64,000 nt of DNA, from the NCBI GenBank assembly GCA_028687995.1, contig JAQTZA010000010.1, forward strand, positions 1 to 64,000. Reading direction: 5' to 3'. Shown piece by piece: positions 28,182 through 51,842 of the stretch. Position 1 is the stretch's first letter; every line of letters starts with the position of its first letter. The position numbers and the translations under genes were made by a program. The notes under the pieces are model-generated. The model was given only the letters and a program-made list of their open reading frames with translations. It was not told the origin of the DNA and made no database searches. Source of the DNA: Bacteroidales bacterium (GTDB lineage: Bacteria; Bacteroidota; Bacteroidia; Bacteroidales; UBA7332).

Positions 28182-30110
28182 CTATTTATCAAGCTCTTCA
28201 AATTCGGAATTGTTACTTATAAATTCTGGAACAAGCTCTTTCATGAGCTTAACCGTACGTGGAATATCTATTTTTTGCGCAGCAAAAATCAATCTGTTTA
28301 GGTCAGCAATAACCTCTTTTAGATTATATTCTCGCACATCTGCTACCATGATTTTTTCGTGGCGAGTAGGTTTTGTTTTTTCACTATCATTCAGCAACTC
28401 TTCGTAAAGTTTTTCCCCTGGTCTCAACCCAGAATAAACAATTTCAATATCAACATTTGGGGTAAATCCAGCTAATTGAATCATGCGACGTGCCATGTCA
28501 TCAATTTTCACTGGATCTCCCATATCAAAAACGTAGATTTCACCATTCACACCCATAGATCCTGCTTCGAGAACTAAACGACAAGCCTCTGGTATGGTCA
28601 TAAAAAATCTAGTGATTTCTGGATGGGTCACAGTAACAGGACCACCCTGTTCTATCTGTTGCCTAAATCGAGGGATTACAGAACCATTAGATCCAAGCAC
28701 GTTTCCAAAACGAGTGGTAATAAATTGCATTGACTTATCTCGCTTTTGTATATATTTCGCCAAGGATTGAACATAAATCTCTGCAATTCTTTTGGAGGCA
28801 CCCATCACATTGCTTGGATTAACTGCTTTATCGGTAGAGATCATTACAAATTTTTCTGCGCCATAACGAATTGCATGATTTGCAATATTTCTTGTGCCAA
28901 AAACGTTTACGGATATAGATTCACATGGATTTTCTTCCATTAGTGGAACATGTTTATATGCAGCGGCATGATAAACAATTTGCGGCCTAAATTTCTTAAA
29001 TACATAAGTCATACGATTTGCATCGCGCACATCACCCAGTATAACTACAAAATTTAAATTTTTAAATTTATCCTCTAACTCTAGTTGCATATCGTGCAAA
29101 GGTGTCTCTGCAGAATCTAACAAAACGATTAATTTAGGCTTGAATTTACTCAATTGACGAACCAATTCACTACCAATAGAACCAGCGGATCCAGTAACCA
29201 AAACGACCTTTCCTTGAGTTTGCTTTGATATTTCATCATTATTAATTTTTATCTCATCTCTGCCTAATAAATCTTCAATCTGAATATTTCGAATTCGACT
29301 AGATTTTAATGAATAATCGGCAATATCCTGCGGCGCTTGAGAAATTAAAACCTTAATCTTCAGAGACATGCATCGTCTTATCAAATCATCATAATTTCTA
29401 CTTATATACTTTGTATCGGGGAAAATTATAGTATCAATCTCGTATCCCTCAAGTAATCTGCCCAAATCTCCATTTAATAGAATCACTGGTAGATCCATGA
29501 TTCTCTTTTGTTGAATTTGATAATCATAAGTCATAAATCCAACTAAACGAAAGCTCCTGTTCCGAGTCATCAATATTGCTCTTGCTAAAGCAACACTATC
29601 GGGTGAAGTACCATAAATCACGGCTCTTTCCAATCTCTCGTCTGTATCCATTATTAACCTCGCATGTACTTTTACTATAATATAGCGAAGTGCAATTAGT
29701 GTCAAAAGTGAAACTGTAAAATTTATCAAAAGACCAGTTAATGAAATTGGGAAATAGAATTTAAAAACAAATACACCTATTGCAAGTAGTATATTTGAAA
29801 AACTAATTGCCATAAAAATACGCCAAACCTCATAATAGGAGGAATACCTAATTATGCCAGAATGAGTTTTGAACAACAAAAACGATGAAGATACTATAAA
29901 TAAATTAACAAGGACTAGTTCACCAAGCATTGGCAACTCATCTGTGACCTCGGGATAAATAAAAATACAGACAAGATAACTAAATACAATGGAAAAAGTC
30001 GCAATAAAACTATCTAACGAAAGGATAATCCACCGGCTTGTAAAGCTGGATCGTACCATTTTGCGTAAGATTGAATCTAGAAAATTTCGTAAATGCAAAA
30101 GTACATTCAT
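28182..30110 (-). CDS. Membrane UDP-GlcNAc 4,6-dehydratase (PglF/WbpM/CapD type)
   Basis: Converts UDP-GlcNAc to UDP-4-keto-6-deoxy-GlcNAc(-type) sugar, the first step to bacillosamine, QuiNAc and related sugars. The N-terminal four transmembrane helices (residues ~25-145) and a CoA-binding-like Rossmann domain (~160-280) are followed by the SDR domain. The NAD motif is VTGSAGSIGSEL (~314-325). The usual SDR Tyr is replaced by Met436 (NVMGASKR, Lys440), as in WbpM and PglF, which keep activity with this SMK-type triad. GLRPGEKLYEELL closes the domain. At 642 residues it has full length. It has its own promoter and is separated by 265 nt from the glycan operon, which supplies matching downstream enzymes. 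Confidence 0.92.
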   Translation of the reverse strand: MNVLLHLRNFLDSILRKMVRSSFTSRWIILSLDSFIATFSIVFSYLVCIFIYPEVTDELPMLGELVLVNLFIVSSSFLLFKTHSGIIRYSSYYEVWRIFMAISFSNILLAIGVFVFKFYFPISLTGLLINFTVSLLTLIALRYIIVKVHARLIMDTDERLERAVIYGTSPDSVALARAILMTRNRSFRLVGFMTYDYQIQQKRIMDLPVILLNGDLGRLLEGYEIDTIIFPDTKYISRNYDDLIRRCMSLKIKVLISQAPQDIADYSLKSSRIRNIQIEDLLGRDEIKINNDEISKQTQGKVVLVTGSAGSIGSELVRQLSKFKPKLIVLLDSAETPLHDMQLELEDKFKNLNFVVILGDVRDANRMTYVFKKFRPQIVYHAAAYKHVPLMEENPCESISVNVFGTRNIANHAIRYGAEKFVMISTDKAVNPSNVMGASKRIAEIYVQSLAKYIQKRDKSMQFITTRFGNVLGSNGSVIPRFRQQIEQGGPVTVTHPEITRFFMTIPEACRLVLEAGSMGVNGEIYVFDMGDPVKIDDMARRMIQLAGFTPNVDIEIVYSGLRPGEKLYEELLNDSEKTKPTRHEKIMVADVREYNLKEVIADLNRLIFAAQKIDIPRTVKLMKELVPEFISNNSEFEELDK

Positions 30111-30375: not shown

Positions 30376-31515
30376 TTATCTAAAGAAGTCTACAATAACC
30401 TTACTCACACGATGTAATTCCGAATCACTAAGTATCGAACCTGAAGGGAGACACAACCCTCTTTCGAAAAGAAAATCAGAAATCCCTGTTCCGTAATACG
30501 GACTATCGGAAAATATTGGTTGCAAATGCATAGGTTTCCACAATGGGCGTGACTCAATATTTTCCTGTTCAAGTTTTAATCGTAAGTCCTCTCTTGTCTT
30601 CCCATTCGTCAAAGTAGGGTCAATCAATATTGAGGTTAACCAGTAATTAGAATAAAAACTGTTATCTGGTTCTGTTTGAAAGGATACGCCTCTGATAGAC
30701 TTCAATTCATTTCTGTAGAACTCATTATTTGACCTTCTTTTTTCAACTCGACTCTTTAAAACAAGCATTTGACCTCGCCCAATTCCTGCGACAACATTGC
30801 TCATTCGATAATTATACCCGATCTGAGTGTGCTGATAATGAGGCGCAGAGTCTCTCGCCTGAGTAGCTAGGAATCTAGACTTCTGAGTCTCATCCTCACT
30901 ATGAGAAACAAAAGCACCACCTCCTGAAGTAGTAATAATTTTATTGCCATTGAATGACAAAATAGCTGACTCTGCCAATGTACCACACGCCTTACCGTCT
31001 AAAAAGGAGCCCAATGCCTCAGCGGCATCTTCAATAACTGGAATTTTATACTTTAATGCAATAGCATTGATTTCATTCATCTTAGCTGGCATGCCGTATA
31101 GATGAACTGGGATAATAGCCTTCACTTTTTTACCGTGTGATATCCTATCAATGATAGCTCTTTCTAATTGTAAAGGACACATATTCCATGTATCCATCTC
31201 ACTATCAACAAAAACAGGGGTAGCCCCCAAATACGTAATCGGATTGGCTGAAGCAGCAAAAGTAAAACTTTGGCAAATCACTTCGTCACCAGCTCCAACG
31301 CCTAACATCACTAATGCCAAATGCAGAGCTGCTGTGCCAGCACTTAGCGCAGCAACATGAACATCATTTCCGAGAAAGCTCTCTAAATCTTTCTCAAAAC
31401 CATCTACATTTGGACCCATAGGGACAACCCAATTGGTCTCAAATGCTTCTTTAATAAATTCTTGTTCTTTACCACCCATGTGTGCTAAAGAGAGCCATAT
31501 TCTTGAGGTATTCAT
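30376..31515 (-). CDS. DegT/DnrJ/EryC1 aminotransferase (PglE-like)
   Basis: A PLP-dependent sugar aminotransferase, 379 residues. SAGTAALHLAL (residues ~58-68) holds the PLP-phosphate site. EDAAEALGS (~162-170) has the pyridine-binding Asp, and SFNGNKIITTSGGG places the PLP lysine at Lys192. YNYRMSNVVAGIGRGQM is the conserved substrate-binding motif. LYGMPAKMNEIN and NGNK are close to PglE/WbpE-type enzymes that aminate the 4-keto sugar made by the dehydratase next door. It is the last gene of the long minus-strand operon, 10 nt after the membrane protein. I infer UDP-4-amino-4,6-dideoxy-GlcNAc as product; other 4-amino or 3-amino sugars are possible. Confidence 0.9.
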   Translation of the reverse strand: MNTSRIWLSLAHMGGKEQEFIKEAFETNWVVPMGPNVDGFEKDLESFLGNDVHVAALSAGTAALHLALVMLGVGAGDEVICQSFTFAASANPITYLGATPVFVDSEMDTWNMCPLQLERAIIDRISHGKKVKAIIPVHLYGMPAKMNEINAIALKYKIPVIEDAAEALGSFLDGKACGTLAESAILSFNGNKIITTSGGGAFVSHSEDETQKSRFLATQARDSAPHYQHTQIGYNYRMSNVVAGIGRGQMLVLKSRVEKRRSNNEFYRNELKSIRGVSFQTEPDNSFYSNYWLTSILIDPTLTNGKTREDLRLKLEQENIESRPLWKPMHLQPIFSDSPYYGTGISDFLFERGLCLPSGSILSDSELHRVSKVIVDFFR

Positions 31516-31525
31516 ACTTTTCTAT

Positions 31526-33181
31526 TTATATAACTTTGAATTCTAATGATCTATTCGGAAAATCTGGATGAAATACTAATCGAATGAAATAATTTTTATC
31601 AAAAATAAAACTTGGTGGCACATGAAAAAATAAATAGGTTTTAAATTGAGTAGAACAACAACCTACTGAACTAATTCGAACCATATCATGATTCGTTGTA
31701 TTTGGGTTTTCGCCATATTGCACAAAAGAATTTCTGCCAATTTTCGATGTAAAGATAGTGGGACATTCCAATAAAATCAATCTCGTCTGTTTAAAATAAA
31801 CCATTTTGGGATGTACATTGTCAAATAACAAATTATCTCTACGTAACAATTCATTAACTACTACATTAGGTAAAAACACAATATATGGCTTATCGAATAA
31901 TCTACTCATTCCTTCATTTGATATCCAATACCGATTTTGATTACCAAGTCCAGTATAACAGACAAATCTATTCTTTTTAATTTTAAAATCTTCAAACACG
32001 GTAATCCGCACATCTGATTTGAGCATTTGATGCTCAATTTTTTGATACGATTTTTGACTTTCTACAAGCTCATCGACGACGGTTCTATACTCAAACAACA
32101 TAAAAAAAGCACCAATTAACAAAACAAGTAAGACGGAAGTTTTTCGGAATAGATTAATATACGTTCTAGCGACAGTTAACAATATAACTAATGCTAGTAT
32201 CGAAGCTGGGAAAATGGCTCGTTGACTAAATGCATTCACCATATAAGCAAATATCAATGATATCACCATTGCGATCAGATATAGATGATTTTCACGTAAA
32301 AGTTGAAAAAAAAGTTGTCGTTTTTGAAGAAAAAGGATAAACCCAATAATCAACAGTATGATAAAAATTTTGGTGGCAACTAAAGCAATAAAGATATGAC
32401 TTTCATTAGATTCCATTACACTCTGAATGGAATGTATAGGCGACGAGGTCGCTGCTGCCGCCATCTTGAAGTTAGCGGGAGAGATTGCGGTAAATATGGC
32501 ACTCAATATCGCTCCACATGATATCGCAAGCGTTTTTCCGCATATCTTCCTCCAATTAACAAATAGATGAAATATAAATGAAATTGAAATTCCAATAGAT
32601 AAAACTTCATGAGTCGCATTCAGAATAATTCCGAGAAAAAAATAAAATAAAATATCAAGTTTTGAAATATTTGACGAAGAAGACGATTTTCCATGAAAAT
32701 AAAACAGTAGCAATGCCAATGTAACAGACCATAGATAATTTACGCTTCCTGACAGCCAAAACATACAATAATTTTGGCCTGGGATAACAAACCAAAGAGA
32801 GAGAATTAGTAAGAGGTATATAGTGACGTTTATCTTACTTTTAGAAATGGATGCACTTCTTAAAATCAAAATTTGCAACAATCCGAACACAAGTGTATTT
32901 GCAATATCGAACCAAATTTTATTGTCAAACATTAAAAAAAACTGCACAATGGTATGAATAAGAACTCTACCGCTGTGAACAAAATAGTGATGATATTGTG
33001 AGTAGAAAATATCAGACAACGATTCTACACGTTTATTCGTTGCACCATTAGCATCAAATATAAATTTATAGTTAAAATCGTCGTACGCTAAATTCGAAAA
33101 AAAGCTTATAACAAAAAATCCCATCAAAGACAGGATAAAAAGGATAAGAACTTTGAGATTTAAGTTTTTAATAAGTAGCAT
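31526..33181 (-). CDS. Polytopic membrane protein, GT-C-like glycosyltransferase (DUF6056-like)
   Basis: A 551-residue protein with about 10-11 transmembrane helices in the first ~380 residues and a soluble C-terminal domain of ~170 residues. LAYDDFNYKF (residues ~30-39) has an acidic pair in the first external loop, the usual catalytic feature of GT-C enzymes, and HSGRVLIH follows at ~66-73. I recall similar Bacteroidota proteins under DUF6056. The gene is 13 nt downstream of a GtrB-like gene, and GtrB partners are typically membrane transferases that add a side-chain sugar from undecaprenyl-phosphate-sugar to the glycan. Specificity unknown. Confidence 0.65.
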   Translation of the reverse strand: MLLIKNLNLKVLILFILSLMGFFVISFFSNLAYDDFNYKFIFDANGATNKRVESLSDIFYSQYHHYFVHSGRVLIHTIVQFFLMFDNKIWFDIANTLVFGLLQILILRSASISKSKINVTIYLLLILSLWFVIPGQNYCMFWLSGSVNYLWSVTLALLLFYFHGKSSSSSNISKLDILFYFFLGIILNATHEVLSIGISISFIFHLFVNWRKICGKTLAISCGAILSAIFTAISPANFKMAAAATSSPIHSIQSVMESNESHIFIALVATKIFIILLIIGFILFLQKRQLFFQLLRENHLYLIAMVISLIFAYMVNAFSQRAIFPASILALVILLTVARTYINLFRKTSVLLVLLIGAFFMLFEYRTVVDELVESQKSYQKIEHQMLKSDVRITVFEDFKIKKNRFVCYTGLGNQNRYWISNEGMSRLFDKPYIVFLPNVVVNELLRRDNLLFDNVHPKMVYFKQTRLILLECPTIFTSKIGRNSFVQYGENPNTTNHDMVRISSVGCCSTQFKTYLFFHVPPSFIFDKNYFIRLVFHPDFPNRSLEFKVI

Positions 33182-33194
33182 TGAATATATTGGC

Positions 33195-34118
33195 TTAAAC
33201 TTTTTCTCTAATCAAATACGGAGGTCGAGGTTTCGCTTCATAAAACATCCTACCTAGATATTCTCCCAAAATACCGATAGTAAGCAATTGAATTCCACCC
33301 ATAAAAACAATAGCGAAAAGCACAATGGGTTGTGTTTGTGCTAACCATTCTATATTAAAACTATTACCAAAAAATAGAAATCCAAAAGATAACACCAAAA
33401 AGAATACCCCTAAAAAAAGGGATAAACGGAGAGGTGCTATCGTAAAAGATGTAATTCCTTCGATAGCCAAGTCCATCAATTGATTAAATCCGAATTTCCC
33501 TTTACCATGTGAGCGCAACGGTTCGTCATACATCACGATTTTTTTCTTGAACCCAATCCAGCTGTATAAACCCTTCGTATATCGTTGCGCATCGCGAATC
33601 TGACACATTGCATCAATACAAACTCTATCGAGTAAACGAAAATCGCCCACATGTTCCTGAATTGGAGTTTTAGAAACACGTGATAATATGGCATGGAAAA
33701 CTTTTGAAGAAATATTTTTAAATAGCGTAGCGTCAGCCAGAGATTTTCTTTGCGCAGCTACATCGTCGTACCCTTCTTCCCAAAATTGCAATAATTCAGG
33801 TATTATTTCGGGAGGATGCTGAAGATCTGCATCCATGATGACAACTGCATCAGCTTCTACAAAATCCAAACCAGCCATCATTGCAATCTCTTTTCCAAAA
33901 TTGCGCGATAAATCGATATATCGAATGTAATTTTTCTTTTCTCTGTAGCTCTTTATTAAATTAAGTGTAGAATCAGTACTTCCATCATTCACAAACAGAA
34001 TCTCCCATTGATAGTTTGTCGAACTCTCAATAAGTAAATCTAATCGCTCGACGAGCAAAGGCAAAACCTGTTCTTCGTTACGACAAGGAATTAGGATGGA
34101 TACTTTTTTCATAAACAA
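33195..34118 (-). CDS. GtrB/DPM1-like polyprenyl-phosphate glycosyltransferase
   Basis: A GT2 enzyme that moves a sugar from a nucleotide donor to polyprenyl phosphate. The GT-A fold has IPCRNEE (residues 10-16), FVNDGSTDST, and the metal-binding DAD at 96-98 (IMDADLQHPPE). DLSRNFGKEIAMMAGL and QRYTKGLYSWIGF are characteristic of the GtrB/dolichyl-phosphate mannose synthase group. Two C-terminal transmembrane helices (~228-255 and ~265-288) are followed by YLGRMFYEAKPRPPYL, the normal GtrB end. At 307 residues it has standard length. The next gene is its likely acceptor-side partner. Confidence 0.92.
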   Translation of the reverse strand: MFMKKVSILIPCRNEEQVLPLLVERLDLLIESSTNYQWEILFVNDGSTDSTLNLIKSYREKKNYIRYIDLSRNFGKEIAMMAGLDFVEADAVVIMDADLQHPPEIIPELLQFWEEGYDDVAAQRKSLADATLFKNISSKVFHAILSRVSKTPIQEHVGDFRLLDRVCIDAMCQIRDAQRYTKGLYSWIGFKKKIVMYDEPLRSHGKGKFGFNQLMDLAIEGITSFTIAPLRLSLFLGVFFLVLSFGFLFFGNSFNIEWLAQTQPIVLFAIVFMGGIQLLTIGILGEYLGRMFYEAKPRPPYLIREKV

Positions 34119-34122
34119 TTAT

Positions 34123-34869
34123 TTAGCGTAAAGTGAGCCCCCCGTCAATCGTAAGAACGCTACCTGTCATCCACTTGGTGGCATCAGAAAGGAGATATAT
34201 GGCAGCGTAGGCAACTTCTTCGGGATTACCATAACGACCTAACGGATAGCGTAACACATCTTTTGCAATTTCGTCATCAGGTATTGCTGTTGTCAGATTA
34301 GTTTTAATCATGCCAGGTTGAATAGCATTAGCTCGTATATTGGATGATGATAATTCAAATGCAATACCTTTCATAAAAGAGTTCATCGCGCCTTTAGAAG
34401 CCATATACATGATGTTACCAAGCGATGCAATGTTAGTTGCAACCGATGAAATCAGCACAATAGATGATTCTTTTGCCAATAAATTCTTTTTATAAATTTT
34501 CTGAATTAACGAAGCCTGACTTAAGAAATTCACATTCATCAAATCTTCAAAGGTCTGATTTTTAATAAATTTCAGGGGCAATCGTTTGATTATTCCTGCA
34601 CAATTTACTAGCCCATTTAATGCGGGCAATTCCTTAACGAATAAATCCACATCTTCTTCATTGGTCAAATCGACCAAATATTGTCGATGTCCTTCTCCTG
34701 ATAATTGAGAAAAAGTATTATTCAATCTTTCTCCATCCCGACCAGTAATAATCAACGTTGCACCCATCTTTGAACATTCAATCGCAATCGATTTCCCAAT
34801 TCCAGATGATGCTCCTGTGATTAATACAACTTTATTTTGAAGCGAAAACGGATTGAAATTTTCCATCAT
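34123..34869 (-). CDS. FabG-like short-chain reductase (cassette A)
   Basis: A classical SDR of 248 residues, resembling 3-oxoacyl-ACP reductase. The cofactor motif is TGASSGIG (18-25), NCAG is at 89-92, and the catalytic Ser142-Tyr155-Lys159 are intact (SSVATNIASL ... YMASKG). It ends with the family pattern SDATKWMTGSVLTIDGG. The start overlaps the stop of the KAS III gene by one base (TAATG), which implies translational coupling. I infer reduction of a 3-oxoacyl-ACP made by that KAS III; a sugar ketoreductase is the alternative. It closely resembles the SDR at 38836-39585. Confidence 0.88.
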   Translation of the reverse strand: MMENFNPFSLQNKVVLITGASSGIGKSIAIECSKMGATLIITGRDGERLNNTFSQLSGEGHRQYLVDLTNEEDVDLFVKELPALNGLVNCAGIIKRLPLKFIKNQTFEDLMNVNFLSQASLIQKIYKKNLLAKESSIVLISSVATNIASLGNIMYMASKGAMNSFMKGIAFELSSSNIRANAIQPGMIKTNLTTAIPDDEIAKDVLRYPLGRYGNPEEVAYAAIYLLSDATKWMTGSVLTIDGGLTLR

Positions 34870-35927
34870 TAAATCTCCACTAATTCACTCAGATAACAAT
34901 CTTTTGTATTGATAATAGCCGAAGCCCATGTCATGCCTACGCCAAATCCTGACAAAAACAGTTGTTTATTGTCATTTAATCTTCCTTGTAATTCAGAGAC
35001 AATCGTTAATGGAATTGAAACAGACGATGTATTACCAAATTTAGCAATAGTAGCCGGCACCTTTTCCTTTTCAAGTTTTAGTTTCTTCGCCAAATAGCTA
35101 TTGATGAAATCGTTCGCTTGATGAAAAACAAAGAAATCAATTTCAGATGTCTGTTTTTCGGCATAGGCAAATATTTTCTTGATGTCTGCCGGAATTTCCC
35201 GAATCACGAAATTAAAAACGTCTCCCCCATTCATATATCCATGCTCTTCACTACGAATATTTCCATATTCATCCACTACCTTCTCTTGTAATGTTTCGAC
35301 AGTTGTCGGATTGCGATATCCACCGGCATTCATTTTGATTAAATCTTCTTTTGAACCGTCTGAGTTCATCGAAAAATAACTTTTCCCGAAATGATCGTTT
35401 CGTTCAATCAATGCGGCAACGCCTGCATCTCCAAATATAAAAGCTGTCTTTCTATCTTTTGGTGAATAAATGCGCGAACGAGTCTCTCCATCAAGTAATA
35501 ATGCTTTACGCAAATTGCTACGCTCCATCATCGAATAAACGATAGACATTCCATATATAAAACCTGAACAACCCAGATTCAAATCAAATGCAATAGTATT
35601 GTGAGACAATCCCAATCTATGTTGCAAGATAATTGATGTAGCTGGCATTCGATAATCGGGTGTTTGAGAAACAAAAACGAGTAAATCAATTTCATCCCGA
35701 TTGATAGACATATCTACAATCAATTTCTCAGCAGCCGCAAAACACAAATCTGAAGAACAAACTCCTTGCTCTGCAAAACGACGCTCAAATATACCAATTT
35801 TGTCCACAACAGCCTTCACATCTTCCTCCGGAAAATGCTCTGTATATTCGTAGTTTTTAATAGTATTTTTGGGAACTGCTGCAGCTATTCCTGAAATTCC
35901 AACATCAGAGAAACTCAATTGAGCCAT
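34869..35927 (-). CDS. Ketoacyl-ACP synthase III (cassette A, first copy)
   Basis: A FabH-like condensing enzyme, 352 residues. The catalytic triad is Cys120 (LGCSGFIYG), His269 (VFHQAN) and Asn299 (GNTSS), so it should be active. SQTPDYRMPATS and FGDAGVAALIE are standard KAS III elements. It lies 53 nt after ACP 1 and is fused by TAATG to the FabG-like gene. Housekeeping fabH is usually beside plsX and rpmF in bacteria; this copy lies inside a glycan operon and so is probably dedicated to making an acyl substituent. Substrate chain length cannot be read from the sequence. Confidence 0.9.
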   Translation of the reverse strand: MAQLSFSDVGISGIAAAVPKNTIKNYEYTEHFPEEDVKAVVDKIGIFERRFAEQGVCSSDLCFAAAEKLIVDMSINRDEIDLLVFVSQTPDYRMPATSIILQHRLGLSHNTIAFDLNLGCSGFIYGMSIVYSMMERSNLRKALLLDGETRSRIYSPKDRKTAFIFGDAGVAALIERNDHFGKSYFSMNSDGSKEDLIKMNAGGYRNPTTVETLQEKVVDEYGNIRSEEHGYMNGGDVFNFVIREIPADIKKIFAYAEKQTSEIDFFVFHQANDFINSYLAKKLKLEKEKVPATIAKFGNTSSVSIPLTIVSELQGRLNDNKQLFLSGFGVGMTWASAIINTKDCYLSELVEI

Positions 35928-35980
35928 ACATTTTTGATTAAATCATTATTCAAATGTCATGTGTTAATCCATAAAGGGAA

Positions 35981-36208
35981 TTACGCTTTTCGTTTCTTAA
36001 TTTCTTCAATTAACTCAGAAATCGTAACAAGTTTTTTGAAATCGTTTCCTTCAATAACCACATCGTACTCTTCATCGATCATCGCAATTACTGATAAGAA
36101 TGCTAATGAATCCCACTGTTCCAATTCGCGAAAAACAGTATCCAAATGCACGGTATCTGCTTCAATTTCTAATGTCTCTTTGAATAATTCAATAAATCTG
36201 GTTTCCAT
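35981..36208 (-). CDS. Acyl carrier protein (cassette A)
   Basis: A 75-residue acidic four-helix carrier. The phosphopantetheine site is Ser34 in the motif WDSLAF, the normal DSL type. VIAMIDEEYDVVIEGNDF is the helix-III recognition region and ISELIEEIKKRK the last helix. It lies between two KAS III genes (34 nt and 53 nt gaps). It is probably a dedicated carrier for the cassette rather than the general AcpP, which is normally next to fabF. Confidence 0.88.
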   Translation of the reverse strand: METRFIELFKETLEIEADTVHLDTVFRELEQWDSLAFLSVIAMIDEEYDVVIEGNDFKKLVTISELIEEIKKRKA

Positions 36209-36242
36209 AATTTTTTATCTGTTTATTTATAATTTATAGTTA

Positions 36243-37304
36243 CTACACTTCTACAATAGGTGGACATACGACATTATCTAGTTCAAAAGACGCTGATGCC
36301 CAAGACAAGCCAACACCAAAGGCACAGACAACTATTTGCTTAGTATGCCCCTCGAGTTGTTTTTTTAATTCTGAAATCATCGTCAATGGAATGGATGCAG
36401 AAGATGTATTTCCATATTTACCTAATGAATATGGCACCTTCTCAGGTTCAATTTTGAGTTTCGTTCTGATTTTCTCATTCATCATTTTATTCGCTTGATG
36501 AAATACAAAGTAATCTACCTGCTCTTTTTCAATCCCAAAAGTTTCAAGCAAAGTATTCACGCTACGAGGCGCTTTTGTAATTCCAAAAGTAAATACAGAT
36601 GGGCCATCAAGAATACTTTGTAACCGATTTCTGTATTGACCTTGTTCAATTTCCGCAAACTCAAACGAAGATTGTGTCGGGAAATTCCGGAAGCCACCGT
36701 CAGGAATGATAATTGATTCAAAGCCTTTCCCATCCGTTCCTAACTGAAATTTAATACCATCTTCTCCTTCAACAAATTCAAGAGCTGTAGCCGTCCCTGC
36801 ATCACCAAAAAGCGGATAAGTGCTTTTATCTCGATCTGATTTAGTCACGGTTGTTGTATCACCTACTAACAAAAGTCCTTTTTTCATCGTACCTGACGAT
36901 AATAATGCAGAAATTGTCGATAATCCATAAACCCAACCAGAGCAACCAAGCGAAATATCCATCGAATAACAATCAATGGGCAATCCTAAACGATGTTGCA
37001 AAATACAAGATGTAGCTGGGAGTATATAATCGGGCGTTTGAGTGACAAATATCAAACAATCAATTTCTTCTTTGGCCCAATTAAGCTCAGCGATTAACTT
37101 TTCTGCTGCATGAAAGCATAAATCTGAAGTGCAAAAACCAGTATCTTTTACCATCCTGCGGTATTCAATTCCGGTAACATCCACAAATCGTTGTGCTTCT
37201 TCAACACTTCCTAACAAAGAGAGTTTTTTATTGTCTTCAATATGTGTTGGAACACAAGCAGACATCCCTTTAATTTTAATATTTTTCGTATGAAGTATTG
37301 CCAT
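36243..37304 (-). CDS. Ketoacyl-ACP synthase III (cassette A, second copy)
   Basis: A 353-residue KAS III with an intact triad Cys121 (LGCSGWVYG), His269 (VFHQAN) and Asn299 (GNTSS). It is more like the enzyme at 39587-40645 than the one at 34869-35927: both have TQTPDYILPATSCILQHRL, HQAN.xMNEKIR.KLKI and a VPYSL stretch before GNTSS. It is 34 nt upstream of ACP 1. Having two non-identical KAS III genes on either side of one ACP suggests either two successive condensations or a heterodimer; both are inference. Confidence 0.9.
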   Translation of the reverse strand: MAILHTKNIKIKGMSACVPTHIEDNKKLSLLGSVEEAQRFVDVTGIEYRRMVKDTGFCTSDLCFHAAEKLIAELNWAKEEIDCLIFVTQTPDYILPATSCILQHRLGLPIDCYSMDISLGCSGWVYGLSTISALLSSGTMKKGLLLVGDTTTVTKSDRDKSTYPLFGDAGTATALEFVEGEDGIKFQLGTDGKGFESIIIPDGGFRNFPTQSSFEFAEIEQGQYRNRLQSILDGPSVFTFGITKAPRSVNTLLETFGIEKEQVDYFVFHQANKMMNEKIRTKLKIEPEKVPYSLGKYGNTSSASIPLTMISELKKQLEGHTKQIVVCAFGVGLSWASASFELDNVVCPPIVEV

Positions 37305-37324
37305 TATTTTCCTTTTATACTAAT

Positions 37325-37966
37325 TTATAGAGTCATTTTCTTTGCTGGATTCCCAAAATATAGAAATCCGTCTTTTGTATCTCGCATCACAACCGAATTT
37401 GTCCCAATTCGAGTATTATTGCCAATTTTTTTCCCTTGAAGAACAATGGCTTGAACTCCAAAGAAATTCTCATCGCCCACAGTACAATCACCAGATATAC
37501 GAGTAGATGGGCTTAATATATTAAAATTACCCAAAGATACATCATGTCCTAAAGAAACTGCTCCGTTAAACAGATTAAAATCACCAATCGTGACATCGCA
37601 ACTCAATCTACACCCAAAAAAAATGATGTTTCCTTGACCCATTTTAATTGTATTCTTATCAAACAGAATCACATTAGGTGCTATTAAATTTGGAAAGTCA
37701 ATTAACGGATTTGAAATATTATTGAACAATTTTCGCACTATTGTTGGATTGGCTATGGCAATGGCAACAGATAGATTCGAGCTATATTTCTGCAAAAAGT
37801 CAATTCCGCCAAGAATTTCCCCATAGCTGTTTCGTATTCCTTTTTCAACTCCATCATCCACAAAACCAAGTAAATTCCAAGTTGGTGATACCTCGTTTAT
37901 AGCATTCAACAGGCAGGCAATTTCTCTACCAAACCCACCAGCACCATATATTACAATATTCTTCAT
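37325..37966 (-). CDS. NeuD/PglD-type hexapeptide acyltransferase
   Basis: A 213-residue sugar acyltransferase. The N-terminal UDP-sugar-binding Rossmann-like part begins IVIYGAGGFGREIACLL (residues 4-20). The rest is a left-handed beta helix of hexapeptide repeats (about 95-200; VTIGDFNLFNGAVSLGHDVSLG, IGNNTRIGTNSVVMRD), ending YFGNPAKKM. PglD N-acetylates the 4-amino group of UDP-4-amino-sugar, which would complete the PglF-PglE-PglD route. The typical catalytic His is probably in SLGHDVSLG. Because it sits directly beside the KAS III/ACP cassettes, it could instead accept an acyl-ACP donor. It is 3 nt from the deacetylase gene. Confidence 0.88.
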   Translation of the reverse strand: MKNIVIYGAGGFGREIACLLNAINEVSPTWNLLGFVDDGVEKGIRNSYGEILGGIDFLQKYSSNLSVAIAIANPTIVRKLFNNISNPLIDFPNLIAPNVILFDKNTIKMGQGNIIFFGCRLSCDVTIGDFNLFNGAVSLGHDVSLGNFNILSPSTRISGDCTVGDENFFGVQAIVLQGKKIGNNTRIGTNSVVMRDTKDGFLYFGNPAKKMTL

Positions 37967-37969
37967 TTT

Positions 37970-38818
37970 TCAATATTCAACTATTGGCACATTTGTCCAA
38001 TCTATTTCGTTCATTGCTTCTCCGACAGACTGAAATTGGAAATCTTGCATGAATTTTTCGTATTTTTCGTAGGCACCACTTATCCCATAATAAGATAAAA
38101 AGTATCGCTTTGAAAAAAATCGTTTCTGTTCTTTATCAAAATCACGAATATGAAAGTAAGTCATATTGTAATCAGATTCAAGCATCCAATTCTTTATCAA
38201 AGAATATGGGAAGAATCGAAAAAAACCACCCCCACTAAAAATAAAATTTCTCCCTAAAATTGGATGGTAAGAAATTGGAAATTGCTTCAATTCTAATCCT
38301 TTTGATTTGATGAGAAATGGTGTGGTTTGATTGACAAACTTATTTCCAGATTTACTTGAAACAGGGAATAAAGAACTATCGCAAGTAATCCCTTCTTCCA
38401 TTAATATTTCCAAAGCCCAGTTCCAGCTTCTATTCATCGAAAATGAAGGTGCTCGATACATATCAACCTTTGTTCCAATTAATTGCTGCAAGCTATCAAT
38501 TGCCAATCGTGTATCTTCACGAAAAGCTTTTGTAGTCATTGTATTAATTAAAGTATGCTTATCTGAATGACAACCAATTTCATGACCTCGCGCAACAATT
38601 CTTCTGATTACTTCAGGTGACTCTCTTGCAATAATACCTACACAGTAAAATGTTGCTTTATAATTTTTCTCATCTAATAAGTCTAAAACTCTATCCAAAT
38701 ATCCATTAATGCAGGGTAAATAGTAATCTTTACCACCCTTTGGATATAAATTATACAAGTGCCACTCTTCTATATCGAATGACAAAATATTCATACTATT
38801 TTTAGCAGGTCCTATCAA
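37970..38818 (-). CDS. NodB-type polysaccharide deacetylase
   Basis: A metal-dependent carbohydrate deacetylase (CE4-like), about 282 residues. SFDIEEWH carries the catalytic/metal Asp. GHEIGCHSDKHTL holds the metal-binding His pair (H-x3-H), and MYRAPSFSMN is the conserved motif 3. It resembles the group found in exopolysaccharide loci (PEP-CTERM/XrtA-associated type). Met9 (codon at 38794), giving MNILSFDIEEWH, is a more typical start, so the first eight residues are uncertain. No signal peptide is seen, suggesting action on a cytoplasmic lipid- or nucleotide-linked sugar. Confidence 0.86.
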   Translation of the reverse strand: MIGPAKNSMNILSFDIEEWHLYNLYPKGGKDYYLPCINGYLDRVLDLLDEKNYKATFYCVGIIARESPEVIRRIVARGHEIGCHSDKHTLINTMTTKAFREDTRLAIDSLQQLIGTKVDMYRAPSFSMNRSWNWALEILMEEGITCDSSLFPVSSKSGNKFVNQTTPFLIKSKGLELKQFPISYHPILGRNFIFSGGGFFRFFPYSLIKNWMLESDYNMTYFHIRDFDKEQKRFFSKRYFLSYYGISGAYEKYEKFMQDFQFQSVGEAMNEIDWTNVPIVEY

Positions 38819-38835
38819 AATTGAGATTTTAGTTA

Positions 38836-39585
38836 TTACAACAATGTGTATCCACCATCAATCAGTAGATTAGATCCAGTCACCCATTTAGAGGCATCGG
38901 ATAACAAATAAATAATCCCATGAGCCACTTCCTGAGGTTCTCCATATCTTTTCAACGGGTATTTATTCATATCCTCAGCAAGTTGTTCTTTTGTGACTAA
39001 TTCGTCATGTAAAATATTTGTATTGACCATTCCAGGAGTAACGCAATTCACCCGAATGCCTTTTGGTGCTAAATCCAATGCCATACTCTTGGCAATACCG
39101 TTTATTGCTCCTTTAGATGCAGAATACATCGCATTTCCTAAAACAGTGACATTAACGCCAGAAATTGACGAGACAAAAACCACTGAAGAACTTTTGCCAA
39201 TTTTTTTAGATTTCACCAAACTTTGCGAAAGCATGGTTGCTGCCACAAAATTCACTTGCATGATTGCAGTTAAATCAACTTCATTAACAAACTGAAATGG
39301 CAAAGTATGCGTAAATCCTGCACAATGAACCACACCATCCAAATTTGGTAACGATTCTACTAGGGGAATAATCTCTTTATTCGTCGAAAAATCAACTATT
39401 CTCGACGTATGATTTGTTCCTTCAAGAGAATCTAATGTCTCGTTTAATCGCTGCTCATTTCTCCCACAGACAATTACATTCGCACCCAATTTTGAACACT
39501 CAATAGCAACAGCTTTACCAATTCCTGAAGAGGCTCCAGTCACCAAAATAGTTTTGTTTTCGAGTGTAAAAGGATTGTAGGACAT
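38836..39585 (-). CDS. FabG-like short-chain reductase (cassette B)
   Basis: A 249-residue classical SDR with TGASSGIG (residues 17-24), HCAG at 87-90, and catalytic Ser140-Tyr154-Lys158. It is clearly a paralogue of the SDR at 34123-34869: both start with the pattern NPF.L.NK, share ECSK.GA, and end in SDA.KW.TGS. Its start is 1 nt after the KAS III stop. It is the probable reductase partner of that KAS III. As with its paralogue, a sugar substrate cannot be excluded. Confidence 0.88.
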   Translation of the reverse strand: MSYNPFTLENKTILVTGASSGIGKAVAIECSKLGANVIVCGRNEQRLNETLDSLEGTNHTSRIVDFSTNKEIIPLVESLPNLDGVVHCAGFTHTLPFQFVNEVDLTAIMQVNFVAATMLSQSLVKSKKIGKSSSVVFVSSISGVNVTVLGNAMYSASKGAINGIAKSMALDLAPKGIRVNCVTPGMVNTNILHDELVTKEQLAEDMNKYPLKRYGEPQEVAHGIIYLLSDASKWVTGSNLLIDGGYTLL

Positions 39586-39586
39586 A

Positions 39587-40645
39587 TTATATTTCTACTA
39601 AATTAGAACAAACAATATTTTCCGTTTCAAAATAGACACTTCCCCACGAAAGACCAACACCAAAACCACAAGCAACAATTCTGTTTATTCCATTGGAAAG
39701 TTCTGTAGCTTTCTCGGTAACAAGAGTCAACGGAATGGTTGCAGAACTAGTATTACCAAAATTCTCTAACGAATATGGAACTTTTTCTACTGGAATTTTG
39801 AGCTTCTTTCTTATTTTTTCATTCATAAAAAGATTTGCCTGATGAAAAACAAACAAATCCACATTTTCTTTATCAATCTGGAAATGTTGTGTTAATTTTT
39901 CAATCGAATCAGGCGCATTTGCTATTCCAAACGAGAAAACATCCATTCCATTCAATACCGTATGTAACTTATTCCGTTCAATTCCCTCTTCAATTTTTTC
40001 CAATTCTAATGAATTAGCAGTGAAAGGCGCTCTATACCCTCCCTCAGGAATAATAATAGCATCATATCCACTGCCATCTGTTGAAGTATGGAATAAGAAA
40101 CGAGACTCACTATTTTCTGTATATTCAAATGCTACAGCCGTGCCAGCATCGCCAAAAAGTGGCCAAGTGCTTTTATCGGTAGTAGAACATGATCTCAACG
40201 ATGTGTCGCCAACAAGTAGTAAAGCTTTTCGAAAACTCCCAGATTGCAAAAAAGAGGTCACGACACTTACACCGTAAATCCAACCCGAGCAACCCAATGA
40301 TACATCCATTGCATGACACTCTTGCGAAAGTGCCAGTCGATGTTGAAGAATGCAAGATGTGGCAGGTAAAATATAGTCGGGAGTTTGGGTAACAAAAACC
40401 AGGCAATCAATCTCATCTTTTACCCATCCTAAATCAGCTATTAACTGCTCGGCAGCGTGATAGCACAAATCGGAAGCAGTAGTATTTTCGTCGGCAATTC
40501 TGCGCCGTCTTACTCCTGTAGAAGTCATAAACTTCTCAGCCTCATCATTCTGAAATAACGACAAGTCTTTATTTTCCTCTAAAGTTCTCGGCACACAACC
40601 AGAAATTCCGGAAATCTTTACATTTTTAACTTCAAAAAAAGCCAT
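39587..40645 (-). CDS. Ketoacyl-ACP synthase III (cassette B)
   Basis: A 352-residue KAS III with triad Cys119 (LGCSGWIYG), His268 (VFHQAN) and Asn298 (GNTSS). It overlaps the ACP 2 stop by one base (TAATG) and ends 1 nt before the SDR start, so ACP 2, KAS III and SDR form one coupled block. It is the third KAS III within 6 kb and most similar to the copy at 36243-37304, which suggests an ancient local duplication. Confidence 0.9.
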   Translation of the reverse strand: MAFFEVKNVKISGISGCVPRTLEENKDLSLFQNDEAEKFMTSTGVRRRRIADENTTASDLCYHAAEQLIADLGWVKDEIDCLVFVTQTPDYILPATSCILQHRLALSQECHAMDVSLGCSGWIYGVSVVTSFLQSGSFRKALLLVGDTSLRSCSTTDKSTWPLFGDAGTAVAFEYTENSESRFLFHTSTDGSGYDAIIIPEGGYRAPFTANSLELEKIEEGIERNKLHTVLNGMDVFSFGIANAPDSIEKLTQHFQIDKENVDLFVFHQANLFMNEKIRKKLKIPVEKVPYSLENFGNTSSATIPLTLVTEKATELSNGINRIVACGFGVGLSWGSVYFETENIVCSNLVEI

Positions 40646-40887
40646 TATTGAGCTCTCGCTTTAACTATATTAAAAAGATCATTAATAGTAGATGACTCTC
40701 TTACATCTACTCCTTTTAATCTTACTTTATAAGATTCATCAACCATCGCAATGACAGATAAAGCAACCAAAGATGACCACTCATCTAACTCTTTAAATTT
40801 AGTTTGAGGCGTGAAAACAGCAGCATCAGTTTCATCAAACTGTTCAGCCATTTTTTCTACAAAATCTACTATTTCCATGTTATTCAA
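40645..40887 (-). CDS. Acyl carrier protein with altered DSL motif (cassette B)
   Basis: An 80-residue acyl carrier protein (77 if it starts at Met4). The attachment motif reads WSSL: Ser39 is the phosphopantetheine site, but the preceding Asp of the usual DSL is Ser38. The following helix ALSVIAMVDESYKVRLKG is ACP-like and parallels ACP 1. The replaced Asp normally contacts the pantetheinyl transferase, so recognition may differ. It overlaps KAS III by 1 nt and is 2 nt after the GNAT-like gene. Confidence 0.85.
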   Translation of the reverse strand: MNNMEIVDFVEKMAEQFDETDAAVFTPQTKFKELDEWSSLVALSVIAMVDESYKVRLKGVDVRESSTINDLFNIVKARAQ

Positions 40888-40889
40888 AA

Positions 40890-41867
40890 TTATCTTGCAT
40901 CAAAATTCAATAAACTAAAGTCCCAATTTTCTGGTTTTGAGATAAAATCGTTCAAATCTCGATTATCATTTATTAATAAATCATACGTTAAAGGCAATCT
41001 CTGTGGTTCAAATTTTCGAGGAATTTTGACTAACATATTCTGAAAAAATGAAAGTTCTCCAACAAAAAGTATTATATCAACTTTTTCATTTTTGAGAATA
41101 TAACTAATCAAAGAATTCAACGCCAATAATGAGCGTTTTCCGTTACGTCGAAAATCCATTAAATAGGCCGCATTTAAACCAGCTTCATTCACAATACGAT
41201 AAACACCACTCAACTCTTTAGAATGAAACCTCTTGTAATTCATTCCAAATCGTCTTTCATAGACTTTATCCGTTAAATCTAGACGGATAGCTTTCTCAAT
41301 TTCAAATACATCCCAAATTAAAGAATATAATTTAACGCCAAAGCACCAAAAAATTAAAATAATTCGAAAAATTGCATCTACAAAGATAAATTTCTTTTTC
41401 AGAAATACCTTAGTTAATGCCACCGGAATCGCATAATAGCTCAAATCTTTGAGGTGAATTGAACCTAACAACTTTACAGCGATACCAAAAGAATTCTCAT
41501 TTGAAACGCCATAAGTGAGTACTACACCTTTTGATTTAACGAATTCCTTCAATTCTTCGAGTAAATCTACATAGAGAAAAGCCTCTTTTCGATACGCTTT
41601 CAAAACAAAAGTTCCACCACTTAATCCGAAAATAAATTTTTCATTATTTACCAAATAATGATAGGGGAAAATAGAAGAATGGGCGATAATTTCGTCGTCA
41701 TCATTTCGGCAAATTGCATGAAAAGAATACCCGAATTCATTCGAACAGTAATAATTAATTAAATCAACCGGTTGCTTGTTAAGCGAAAATGACTCATTAA
41801 ACCCAGAAGTTATCTGAGTCCAATCTATTTCATTCAATTCACCGCTTTTGACAACCGATATTTTCAT
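40890..41867 (-). CDS. GNAT-like acyltransferase
   Basis: A 325-residue protein with an N-terminal GNAT-like fold: IIAHSSIFPYHYLV and FIFGLSGGTFVLKAYRKEAFLYVDLLEEL (residues ~60-110) look like strands 4-5 and the acyl-donor-binding turn. The C-terminal half is less typical (hydrophobic helix ~160-185, then LLINDNRDLNDFISKPENWDFSLLNFD). I see no FemAB or MBOAT motif. It is 2 nt before ACP 2, so its donor may be acyl-ACP rather than acetyl-CoA. The acceptor would be an amino sugar or sugar hydroxyl. The assignment to GNAT is good, the substrate is inference. Confidence 0.65.
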   Translation of the reverse strand: MKISVVKSGELNEIDWTQITSGFNESFSLNKQPVDLINYYCSNEFGYSFHAICRNDDDEIIAHSSIFPYHYLVNNEKFIFGLSGGTFVLKAYRKEAFLYVDLLEELKEFVKSKGVVLTYGVSNENSFGIAVKLLGSIHLKDLSYYAIPVALTKVFLKKKFIFVDAIFRIILIFWCFGVKLYSLIWDVFEIEKAIRLDLTDKVYERRFGMNYKRFHSKELSGVYRIVNEAGLNAAYLMDFRRNGKRSLLALNSLISYILKNEKVDIILFVGELSFFQNMLVKIPRKFEPQRLPLTYDLLINDNRDLNDFISKPENWDFSLLNFDAR

Positions 41868-41881
41868 TGTAAATATTGCCG

Positions 41882-42550
41882 TTAATCTTCAATTGTGCGA
41901 ATCACCATAAAAGCCTCTGCTCGCTGAAACCCAACTGTAGCACCTCTAAATTTAGCCAACGCTTCCAATGTTTCTAACGAACGTGGATTTGGGAAAACCC
42001 TTAATTGCCCAGAATAACACTCCATTGCTTTCAGTTTGGCAGAAAGATTGTCCTCAATATTAATAAAATGGGTTGGAATAAATGCATCGTCGCCAAAAGG
42101 TGCGGCCCATTCAGTTTCCGAAAGCGTTTCGTAAGCATAAATCCGCTTCACTGTATAATCGCCAACAGGACGACCTGCAACAATTGCCGCATTGAAAACA
42201 GCATAATGATCGTGATGAATATCTCCACGATGAGGAATAAAAAGGGTATCAATTGAAAGTTTTTTTATCAATCCAGAAATAGCAACCGACATTTCAGCTC
42301 GTGACGTAATATCCAGATTTGGAGCTGGGTAATCAAAGAAAAAAGTCTCTTTAACACCTAATACAGCATGAGATTCTTTTGCCTGCGCTCGTCCTTTTGC
42401 TATACGTTCGTCAGAATAAAGCTTTGCATCGCCACGTGTCATGATCAACGCATAGACACTCTTTCCTTCTTTGGCATATTTATCCATCACACCACCACAA
42501 CCCAGCACTTCATCGTCGGGATGCGGTGCAATTATCAGAATATTTTTCAT
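41882..42550 (-). CDS. PIG-L family N-deacetylase
   Basis: A zinc deacetylase of the PIG-L/LmbE family (222 residues). APHPDDEVLGCGG (residues 8-20) holds the metal-binding His-Asp-Asp and PHRGDIHHDH (~106-115) the other His ligands. Members remove N-acetyl groups from GlcNAc-type sugars, or make bacillithiol. In a glycan operon, a sugar intermediate is the likely substrate, leaving a free amine that could be re-acylated. It is adjacent to the GNAT-like gene (14 nt). Confidence 0.9.
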   Translation of the reverse strand: MKNILIIAPHPDDEVLGCGGVMDKYAKEGKSVYALIMTRGDAKLYSDERIAKGRAQAKESHAVLGVKETFFFDYPAPNLDITSRAEMSVAISGLIKKLSIDTLFIPHRGDIHHDHYAVFNAAIVAGRPVGDYTVKRIYAYETLSETEWAAPFGDDAFIPTHFINIEDNLSAKLKAMECYSGQLRVFPNPRSLETLEALAKFRGATVGFQRAEAFMVIRTIED

Positions 42551-42560
42551 AAATCAATAT

Positions 42561-43247
42561 TTATTTAGGTTGATTTTCCATTACTCTTTTCCAATCGTAT
42601 CCACAGTGCATCAAATAGTCTAAGAAACAAATATTCGACTGAAATCCTTCAAAAAACTGAGGATACTCGAACGGTGTAAAATGCGAATAACGAAGTTCTA
42701 ACCCTCTCTTTGTGAAATTTTCTTCGATTTGATAAGCTTTTGCGCCTGTTCCAGAATAATAAACCGTTGCATCTAAAGCATTACAAATATCAAGCACTTT
42801 TTCTTCGCGTGTTGTCGTAGTTTTTAAATCGGAAGATTTAACAAACTCGGTCGTAAATTCGAATTTGTGGCAAACTGATTCAACAATGGCTTGATTCATT
42901 TCTGCAATATTCGGATAATCAGCCAGTAAAAGTGCAGAAAAATCAGTAAATACTTCCTCAAAAAAGGCAGCTTTTTTGTAGGTATGTTCAATTGTTTTGA
43001 GGTGACTCTTCTTCCAGTTCAACTCATCTCGCGTACGTACCTGATTGATCAAATCTCCCATTTTTTGTTCTACTGGGATTTTCATTCGGAATGGCCCTTG
43101 TGCCATTTTAATGTAATGAAAATTGTGCATCCCCTGAGTTGAATATTGTACATCATCGAGAAATACAAACACATCTGATTGATCAATTTTATAAAAATAT
43201 CCCAACCAAGGCAAATAGTTGGGTTGATGTATAGAGACAATTTTCAT
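42561..43247 (-). CDS. WbqC-family protein
   Basis: A 228-residue protein of the WbqC family (PF08889), recognisable by IHQPNYLPWLGYFYKI (residues 6-21), FVFLDDVQYS and the C-terminal FEGFQSNICFLDYLMHCG pattern. WbqC-like genes are frequent in O-antigen loci, and roles in attaching amino acids or acyl groups to amino sugars have been suggested, but I know of no firm biochemistry. It is followed by the longest gap in this part of the operon (110 nt). Confidence 0.85.
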   Translation of the reverse strand: MKIVSIHQPNYLPWLGYFYKIDQSDVFVFLDDVQYSTQGMHNFHYIKMAQGPFRMKIPVEQKMGDLINQVRTRDELNWKKSHLKTIEHTYKKAAFFEEVFTDFSALLLADYPNIAEMNQAIVESVCHKFEFTTEFVKSSDLKTTTTREEKVLDICNALDATVYYSGTGAKAYQIEENFTKRGLELRYSHFTPFEYPQFFEGFQSNICFLDYLMHCGYDWKRVMENQPK

Positions 43248-43357: not shown

Positions 43358-43960
43358 TTACTTTTTATTCTCAATTTTAGTATATACATTATCTGTTTTG
43401 AAGAAAACAAATAATGAAGCGAAAAACAATTGAACATCAAATACGAAAGAAATTTTATCTACATATTCAACATCCATTGGAATTATTTTACTCCAATCAT
43501 TTACTTCTCGTGCACGAACTGCAGCAAAGCCACTTAATCCGGGTTTAACTTCAAATCTTCGTTTTTCAAATTCGTTGTAATCCTCGTATTTTTTGGGATA
43601 AAGAACAACTGGTGGTCGAGGGCCAATAAAGCTCATATCTCCTTTTAAAATATTTATCAACTGTGGAATTTCATCAATACTTGTTTTGCGCACAAAGCTT
43701 CCCATTTTTGTAATCTTCGGATCATTTGCCAACAAGGGCTTTCCAAACATAAAATTATCAGGTCGATTAACCATGGAACGAAACTTCACTATCTTGAAAA
43801 CTTTTCCTTTTTTTCCCAATCGTTCTTGCAAAAAGAAAACTGGTCCCGGAGAATCAATTTTTATCAAAATTGCAATTATAAATAACAAAGGCGATAATAT
43901 GATTAGTGCGAAAAATGCTAGAATCCAATCATATACAGGCTTAATAATATTTACATACAT
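43358..43960 (-). CDS. PglC-like phosphoglycosyltransferase (initiating sugar transferase)
   Basis: A monotopic phosphoglycosyltransferase that moves sugar-1-phosphate from a UDP-sugar to undecaprenyl phosphate and so starts repeat-unit synthesis. At 200 residues it is the minimal PglC size, without the extra membrane domain of WcaJ/WbaP. It has a re-entrant hydrophobic N-terminus (~11-33), DSPGPVFFLQERLG, FKIVKFRSM, and the catalytic Asp96-Glu97 in SIDEIPQL, followed by MSFIGPRPP. With the PglF-, PglE- and PglD-like genes nearby, diNAc-bacillosamine or a related sugar is the probable substrate. Confidence 0.92.
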   Translation of the reverse strand: MYVNIIKPVYDWILAFFALIILSPLLFIIAILIKIDSPGPVFFLQERLGKKGKVFKIVKFRSMVNRPDNFMFGKPLLANDPKITKMGSFVRKTSIDEIPQLINILKGDMSFIGPRPPVVLYPKKYEDYNEFEKRRFEVKPGLSGFAAVRAREVNDWSKIIPMDVEYVDKISFVFDVQLFFASLFVFFKTDNVYTKIENKK

Positions 43961-51797: not shown

Positions 51798-51842
51798 AAA
51801 TTTTCATCACTAGAAATCAACCAAAACGGTCAATTTTCATAA

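Follow-up and report, generated by a model that had tools for sequence, protein, structure and literature searches.

The analyzed window comprises the first 64,000 nucleotides of contig JAQTZA010000010.1 of a Bacteroidales bacterium and contains a surface-glycan operon with two cassettes for the synthesis of acyl groups on acyl carrier proteins (ACPs). A preliminary description had reported these cassettes as sets of ACP, β-ketoacyl-ACP synthase III (KAS III) and short-chain dehydrogenase/reductase (SDR) genes. All seven genes are indeed complete open reading frames (ORFs) on the minus strand with the coordinates given there, and Pfam recovers the three KAS III, the two SDRs and ACP1. The operon is transcribed in the order BacTr, WbqC, PIG-L, GNAT, ACP2, KAS_2, SDR2, DAC, PglD, KAS_C1, ACP1, KAS_E1, SDR1, GT2, DUF6056, PglE and PglF (Table 1). 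Encoded upstream are additional glycosyltransferases as well as an EpsG-like protein, a UDP-GlcNAc 2-epimerase, a pyruvyltransferase and further products of glycan genes. The CE4 deacetylase (DAC), the PglD-type acyltransferase and the GNAT protein lie in the same interval but were left out of the preliminary description; these three genes decide the interpretation. The tight coupling claimed for the cassettes holds for three of five junctions, with TAATG overlaps read directly at KAS_E1-SDR1 and ACP2-KAS_2 and a gap of 1 nt at KAS_2-SDR2, but not for the remaining two within cassette 1 (34 and 53 nt). A promoter and terminator scan gave counts close to the shuffle means.

Table 1. Genes of the operon in transcription order (positions in the window).
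Feature	Position	Strand	Basis
PglC-like initiating sugar-phosphate transferase (BacTr), context	43358..43960	-	PF02397
WbqC-like protein, context	42561..43247	-	PF08889
PIG-L family deacetylase, possible part	41882..42550	-	PF02585
GNAT, proposed N-acyltransferase of cassette 2	40890..41867	-	PF13527 (E 2e-4); GNAT fold in N-half of weak AlphaFold model; DAC always near
ACP2, WSSL-type acyl carrier protein, cassette 2	40645..40878	-	Weak NCBIfam match; recurrent ACP family
KAS_2, KAS III of C clade, cassette 2	39587..40645	-	PF08541+PF08545; triad C119/H268/N298
SDR2, ketoreductase, cassette 2	38836..39585	-	Pfam SDR match; active-site motifs
DAC, CE4/DUF3473 deacetylase, proposed partner of GNAT	37970..38818	-	PF01522+PF11959; TIGR03006 (E 1e-50, below cut-off)
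PglD-type N-acyltransferase, proposed transferase of cassette 1	37325..37966	-	PglD_N PF17836; TIGR03570
KAS_C1, KAS III of C clade, cassette 1	36243..37304	-	PF08541+PF08545; triad C121/H269/N299
ACP1, acyl carrier protein (WDSL, Ser34), cassette 1	35981..36208	-	PF00550 (E 3e-9)
KAS_E1, KAS III of E clade, cassette 1	34869..35927	-	PF08541/PF08545; triad C120/H269/N299
SDR1, FabG-like ketoreductase, cassette 1	34123..34869	-	PF13561/PF00106; TGASSGIG, Y155, K159
GT2 glycosyltransferase, context	33195..34118	-	PF00535
DUF6056 membrane protein	31526..33181	-	Domain match
PglE-like 4-aminotransferase	30376..31515	-	PF01041 (E 1e-91)
PglF-like UDP-GlcNAc 4,6-dehydratase	28182..30110	-	PF02719 (E 2e-120)

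The catalytic residues described previously are intact in all enzymes: the three KAS III have their Cys-His-Asn triads, and SDR1 (Tyr155/Lys159) and SDR2 (Tyr154/Lys158) both contain the upstream Ser and the TGASSGIG motif. The genome has six KAS III matches, three of them in the window, and the best FabH-like one (top score to PF08545) is encoded on a separate contig (C23), which rejects the window KAS III as the main FabH of this genome. Judged by this ranking, the cassette enzymes are extra and not housekeeping. A second surface-glycan locus on contig C16 of this genome (L139) carries at one end a third such cassette, ACP-SDR-KAS III (389-2386 of the locus), and the KAS encoded there, another of the KAS III matches, belongs to a more distant clade. 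The two genomes of the same genus and the one of the same family that were searched contain no relative of KAS_E1 with E 1e-60 or lower, indicating that the window locus is variable or acquired.

Cassette 1 combines two KAS, an ACP, a ketoreductase and a PglD-type transferase in one run (34123-37966), with PglE and PglF downstream in the locus. The PglD protein scores just below the cut-off of the NeuD/PglB/VioB family TIGR03570 (E 2e-46, 158 bits, cut-off 161), has PglD and VioB as relatives in the PDB and carries His141 in a GHDV motif. This gene content matches that of the fish bacterium Flavobacterium psychrophilum, where wfpC (KAS), wfpD (ACP), wfpE (KAS), wfpF (ketoreductase), wfpG (PglD homologue), pglE and pglF were assigned to Qui2NAc4N with 3,5-dihydroxyhexanoyl (PMC6519341). 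In the F. psychrophilum O-polysaccharide this acyl group is located on N4 of Qui2NAc4N, a structure obtained by NMR, while the wfp genes were themselves assigned to it by homology (PMC6519341); its configuration is (3S,5S) (PMC3210612). The product of cassette 1 is therefore likely a C6 dihydroxyacyl group (3,5-dihydroxyhexanoyl) and not 3-hydroxybutyryl, as had been proposed. FabG of fatty acid synthesis yields 3R alcohols, so that an S,S product would require a reductase of its own and a carrier separated from the pool used for fatty acids; this need would explain why the cassette is dedicated.

The PglD-KAS-ACP-KAS-SDR block recurs in Flavobacterium paronense (L003), Flavobacterium sp. (L007), Ferruginibacter (L008), two Chlorobiaceae (L001, L002) and further Bacteroidota (L004, L005, L009), with a slightly changed order in F. 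aciduliphilum (L006), and it is often accompanied by PglE/PglF. A BacTr gene directly precedes PglD in L001-L003 and L005-L009. Among loci with an ACP/KAS cassette beside PglD, two KAS are present in all 10 whose PglD scores at least 276 bits to that of the window (the second KAS of L001 was counted by eye, with two spurious ORFs in between), whereas a single KAS is present in nine Flavobacterium loci whose PglD is of a different type (74-102 bits). Since two-KAS cassettes are also found with other PglD types, the relation between KAS number and PglD type is an association and not a law. KAS_C1 and KAS_E1 group with the same Chlorobiaceae loci in the tree, and the block thus travels as a unit.

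Cassette 2 (38836-40887) encodes one KAS, one SDR and one ACP, and adjoins a putative N-acyltransferase of another family than VioB. The single-KAS set vioS/vioR/acp/vioB of Pseudomonas syringae serves 3-hydroxybutyryl-viosamine, and deletion of vioR removes that sugar, leaving only rhamnose on the flagellin (PMC3927599). By analogy with vioS/vioR/acp, cassette 2 probably makes 3-hydroxybutyryl. Although ACP2 has no Pfam match and a weak NCBIfam ACP match (E 9e-4), it belongs to a family of recurring ACPs. Its ORF reaches up to a TTG at position 40887; the relatives begin at the position equivalent to the ATG at 40878, which is therefore the probable start (77 aa). We considered ACP2 as a decayed carrier because it lacks the DSL motif and rejected this, since Ser replaces Asp (SSL) in 54 of 66 ACP2-type sequences and ACP2 falls in a WSSL subfamily; DSL is present in 19 of 20 ACP1-type carriers. 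In locus L133, a malonyl-CoA:ACP transacylase-like gene (PF00698; 11020-11976) sits within an ACP-SDR-KAS cassette, which supports chain extension by malonyl units.

An alternative for the products is that a single condensation in each cassette yields 3-hydroxybutyryl in both cases, with a redundant extra KAS and a PglD that uses both. Surface glycans commonly have 3-hydroxybutyryl at N4 of Qui2NAc4N (PMC8074265), and single-KAS cassettes do exist beside PglD. Yet the gene set published for 3,5-dihydroxyhexanoyl is the two-KAS block with PglD, PglE and PglF, the second KAS is kept throughout the closest loci (10/10), and two ACP subfamilies together with two transferase types point to separate products. 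We consider this alternative unlikely; that the operon makes two different acyl groups rather than one redundantly, as already suggested in the preliminary description, is likely.

The two putative transferase types lie next to different cassettes. The sole PglD of the window adjoins cassette 1, while the GNAT gene is located directly upstream of cassette 2 and the CE4 deacetylase gene directly downstream. GNAT homologues are rare (3 of 294 other genomes of the order and 1 of 394 in a sample of the class), and a DAC of the same type is adjacent or within a few genes in all six known GNAT loci (the window, L011, L124, L125, L126 and L138, the last cut at a contig end with any acyl genes outside view). 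At that score, DAC was found in two of 80 sampled genomes of the order, the window genome and that of L133, where it again belongs to an ACP/KAS/SDR locus, with the malonyl transacylase. Locus L126 reads ACP-KAS-SDR-GNAT-DAC with no PglD beside it; in L124 and L125, GNAT-DAC is accompanied by an AMP-binding (acyl-activating) enzyme and by an ACP or an SDR, respectively; and L011 is another locus with two cassettes, containing both PglD and GNAT/DAC. On the basis of this linkage and these contexts we assign GNAT and DAC to cassette 2 and read them as deacetylation followed by acylation from ACP2. DAC contains the CE4 metal-binding motifs (SFDIE, HSDKH, RAPSFS). It is a relative but not a member of the XrtA-system polysaccharide deacetylases TIGR03006 (172 bits, cut-off 276). 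A hydrophobic helix near residues 161-189 of the GNAT model, predicted with low confidence, would suit a membrane-linked acceptor, although this is speculation.

The amine could instead be freed by PIG-L, with DAC belonging to PglD and BacTr. PIG-L adjoins GNAT in the window and a distant GNAT in L003, and in L010 DAC lies beside BacTr-PglD without GNAT; the other five loci of this GNAT family, however, have DAC and no PIG-L match, which makes this assignment doubtful.

The two cassettes did not arise from each other. KAS_C1 and KAS_2 are 56% identical but are not sisters in the tree: KAS_C1 groups with proteins of Chlorobiaceae and of L004 (L001/L002/L004; support 100/98) and KAS_2 is sister to a Porphyromonas cangingivalis KAS (98/88). 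Forcing them together costs 92 log-likelihood units (approximately unbiased test, p-AU 0.00017), which rules out local duplication and with it the earlier notion of a duplicated cassette. KAS_E1 belongs to another clade, as sister to a Chlorobiaceae KAS (100/98), and both SDR1 and SDR2 have better scores against cassettes of other organisms than against each other. The KAS tree and the different motif types of ACP1 and ACP2 thus indicate two modules brought together from separate sources. A similar pairing in L011 is built differently, with PglD and two C-clade KAS.

It is distinctly improbable that the cassettes cooperate on one longer chain, in which three condensations would give a C8 (or other) polyhydroxyacyl group. 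They share an operon, a three-KAS locus exists (L069), and C-clade KAS are found beside loaded carriers and may extend ACP-bound acyls; but the cassettes contain separate reductases and ACPs of different subfamilies, each is found elsewhere without the other, and two transferases are present. An altered Cys-His-Asn triad is the criterion for CerJ-type KAS III-like acyltransferases, and although such ester-forming enzymes are known, the triad is kept in 165 of 165 aligned KAS III and a dedicated ACP and ketoreductase are present, so that a CerJ-like role of any window KAS III is very unlikely.

We therefore propose, with moderate confidence, that two independent acyl-decoration modules are assembled in one surface-glycan operon, one for a C6 dihydroxyacyl and one for a C4 hydroxyacyl group; the chain lengths and substrates are inferred, as are the positions and the order of action. 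In module 1 (KAS_C1, ACP1, KAS_E1, SDR1 and PglD, with PglE and PglF), acetyl-CoA and malonyl-ACP1 would be condensed and reduced, and condensation with a second malonyl unit and a second reduction would give 3,5-dihydroxyhexanoyl-ACP1. PglF and PglE would convert UDP-GlcNAc to UDP-Qui2NAc4N, to the N4 of which PglD would transfer the C6 acyl group. In module 2 (ACP2, KAS_2, SDR2, GNAT and DAC), a single condensation and a single reduction would give 3-hydroxybutyryl-ACP2. DAC would strip the N-acetyl group from an amino sugar (probably polyprenyl- or nucleotide-linked) in the cytoplasm, and GNAT would place 3-hydroxybutyryl on the freed amine. More tentatively, module 2 (GNAT-ACP-KAS-SDR-DAC) may represent a Nod-factor-like deacetylate-and-reacylate system outside rhizobia, which would swap N-acetyl for a short 3-hydroxyacyl group on a glycan intermediate through a so far uncharacterized GNAT-family acyl-ACP transferase.

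Several points weigh against this proposal. The orthology of cassette 1 to the F. psychrophilum wfp genes rests on gene content; control primers of PMC5601056, used for in-silico PCR, had no match in 399 Flavobacterium genomes, a set without F. psychrophilum. Two published cases underlie the use of KAS number to infer chain length. GNAT is weakly recognized, and its AlphaFold model, of low quality (pLDDT 54), supports a GNAT fold in the N-half and nothing beyond that. PIG-L is a second candidate deacetylase. Finally, C-clade KAS relatives are also found beside an AMP-binding protein and two carriers (Parabacteroides distasonis), where the starter need not be acetyl-CoA. E-clade KAS do occur alone in Flavobacterium, and C-clade KAS alone in cassette 2 and L010; either can thus probably start from acetyl-CoA.

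The P. distasonis genes are located in a capsule locus on plasmid NZ_OY725812.1 (L140, 5462-9801 of the locus), where an acetyltransferase, a phosphopantetheine-binding protein, an ACP, an AMP-binding protein, a KAS III and an SDR are consecutive. This row is a hybrid acyl-activating and chain-extending cassette, and L034, L042, L049 and L070 may be alike. Apart from P. distasonis, a plasmid search gave only distant KAS relatives.

The DUF6056 membrane protein, which adjoins GT2, probably acts on the glycan as a polyprenyl-sugar-dependent transferase. Elsewhere in the glycan operon, a single ORF (62146-63789) fuses a formyltransferase domain (PF00551) with a GT2 domain, a nitroreductase-like ORF is present at 60077-61048, and an ATP-grasp protein, an asparagine synthase-like amidotransferase and a PGA_cap (capsule synthesis) protein are encoded consecutively at 48884-52979. 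The WbqC-like protein is encoded next to PIG-L (41882-43247). WbqC and PIG-L are likewise together near the PglD cassettes of L004 and L075, with a protein of about 325 aa without Pfam match directly after WbqC.

If our proposal is true, KAS III number, ACP subfamily and transferase type would allow acyl length and attachment chemistry to be predicted from sequence for the surface glycans of Bacteroidota, and the GNAT/CE4 pair would be defined as an acyl-exchange device on surface polysaccharides. F. psychrophilum strains with different R-group genes differ in lipopolysaccharide antigenicity (PMC6519341).

The proposed C6 dihydroxyacyl module is of a known kind, and the earlier view of dedicated acyl-ACP synthesis for amino sugar decoration is supported. 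The F. psychrophilum R1-group genes (PMC6519341) likewise bring together, within a single surface-glycan locus, two KAS, an ACP, a ketoreductase, a PglD-type transferase and PglE/PglF. Compared by gene content, the window, in another organism and for another glycan, adds a second cassette, GNAT, DAC, PIG-L and WbqC. Cassette 2 resembles the viosamine island of P. syringae (PMC3927599) and the related glycosylation island of P. aeruginosa PAK, in which a single KAS III, a ketoreductase and an ACP feed an amino-sugar N-acyltransferase. There the donor is 3-hydroxybutyryl, used by VioB on dTDP-viosamine for a flagellin glycan, while cassette 2 has GNAT and a deacetylase instead. The GNAT/CE4 arrangement is apparently undescribed, as we found no description of it in the open-access papers searched. 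Its closest counterpart in rhizobia is NodB, NodA and NodF/NodE, in which a deacetylase frees an amine and a transferase acylates it from a dedicated carrier with a chain made by a dedicated KAS (PMC5080398, which swaps the usual NodE and NodF names). Module 2 differs in its proposed short chain, its KAS III, the DUF3473-type deacetylase and a surface glycan in place of a chitooligomer; no NodA is recognizable, since five GNAT members had no match to the NodA family of Pfam even at E up to 10, and the module would thus work like the Nod system without being a member of it. Module 1, in turn, parallels PglF/PglE/PglD of Campylobacter, where a dehydratase, an aminotransferase and a PglD-family N-acyltransferase make UDP-diNAc-bacillosamine; the donor of the Campylobacter PglD is acetyl-CoA, whereas we propose acyl-ACP for the PglD of the window.

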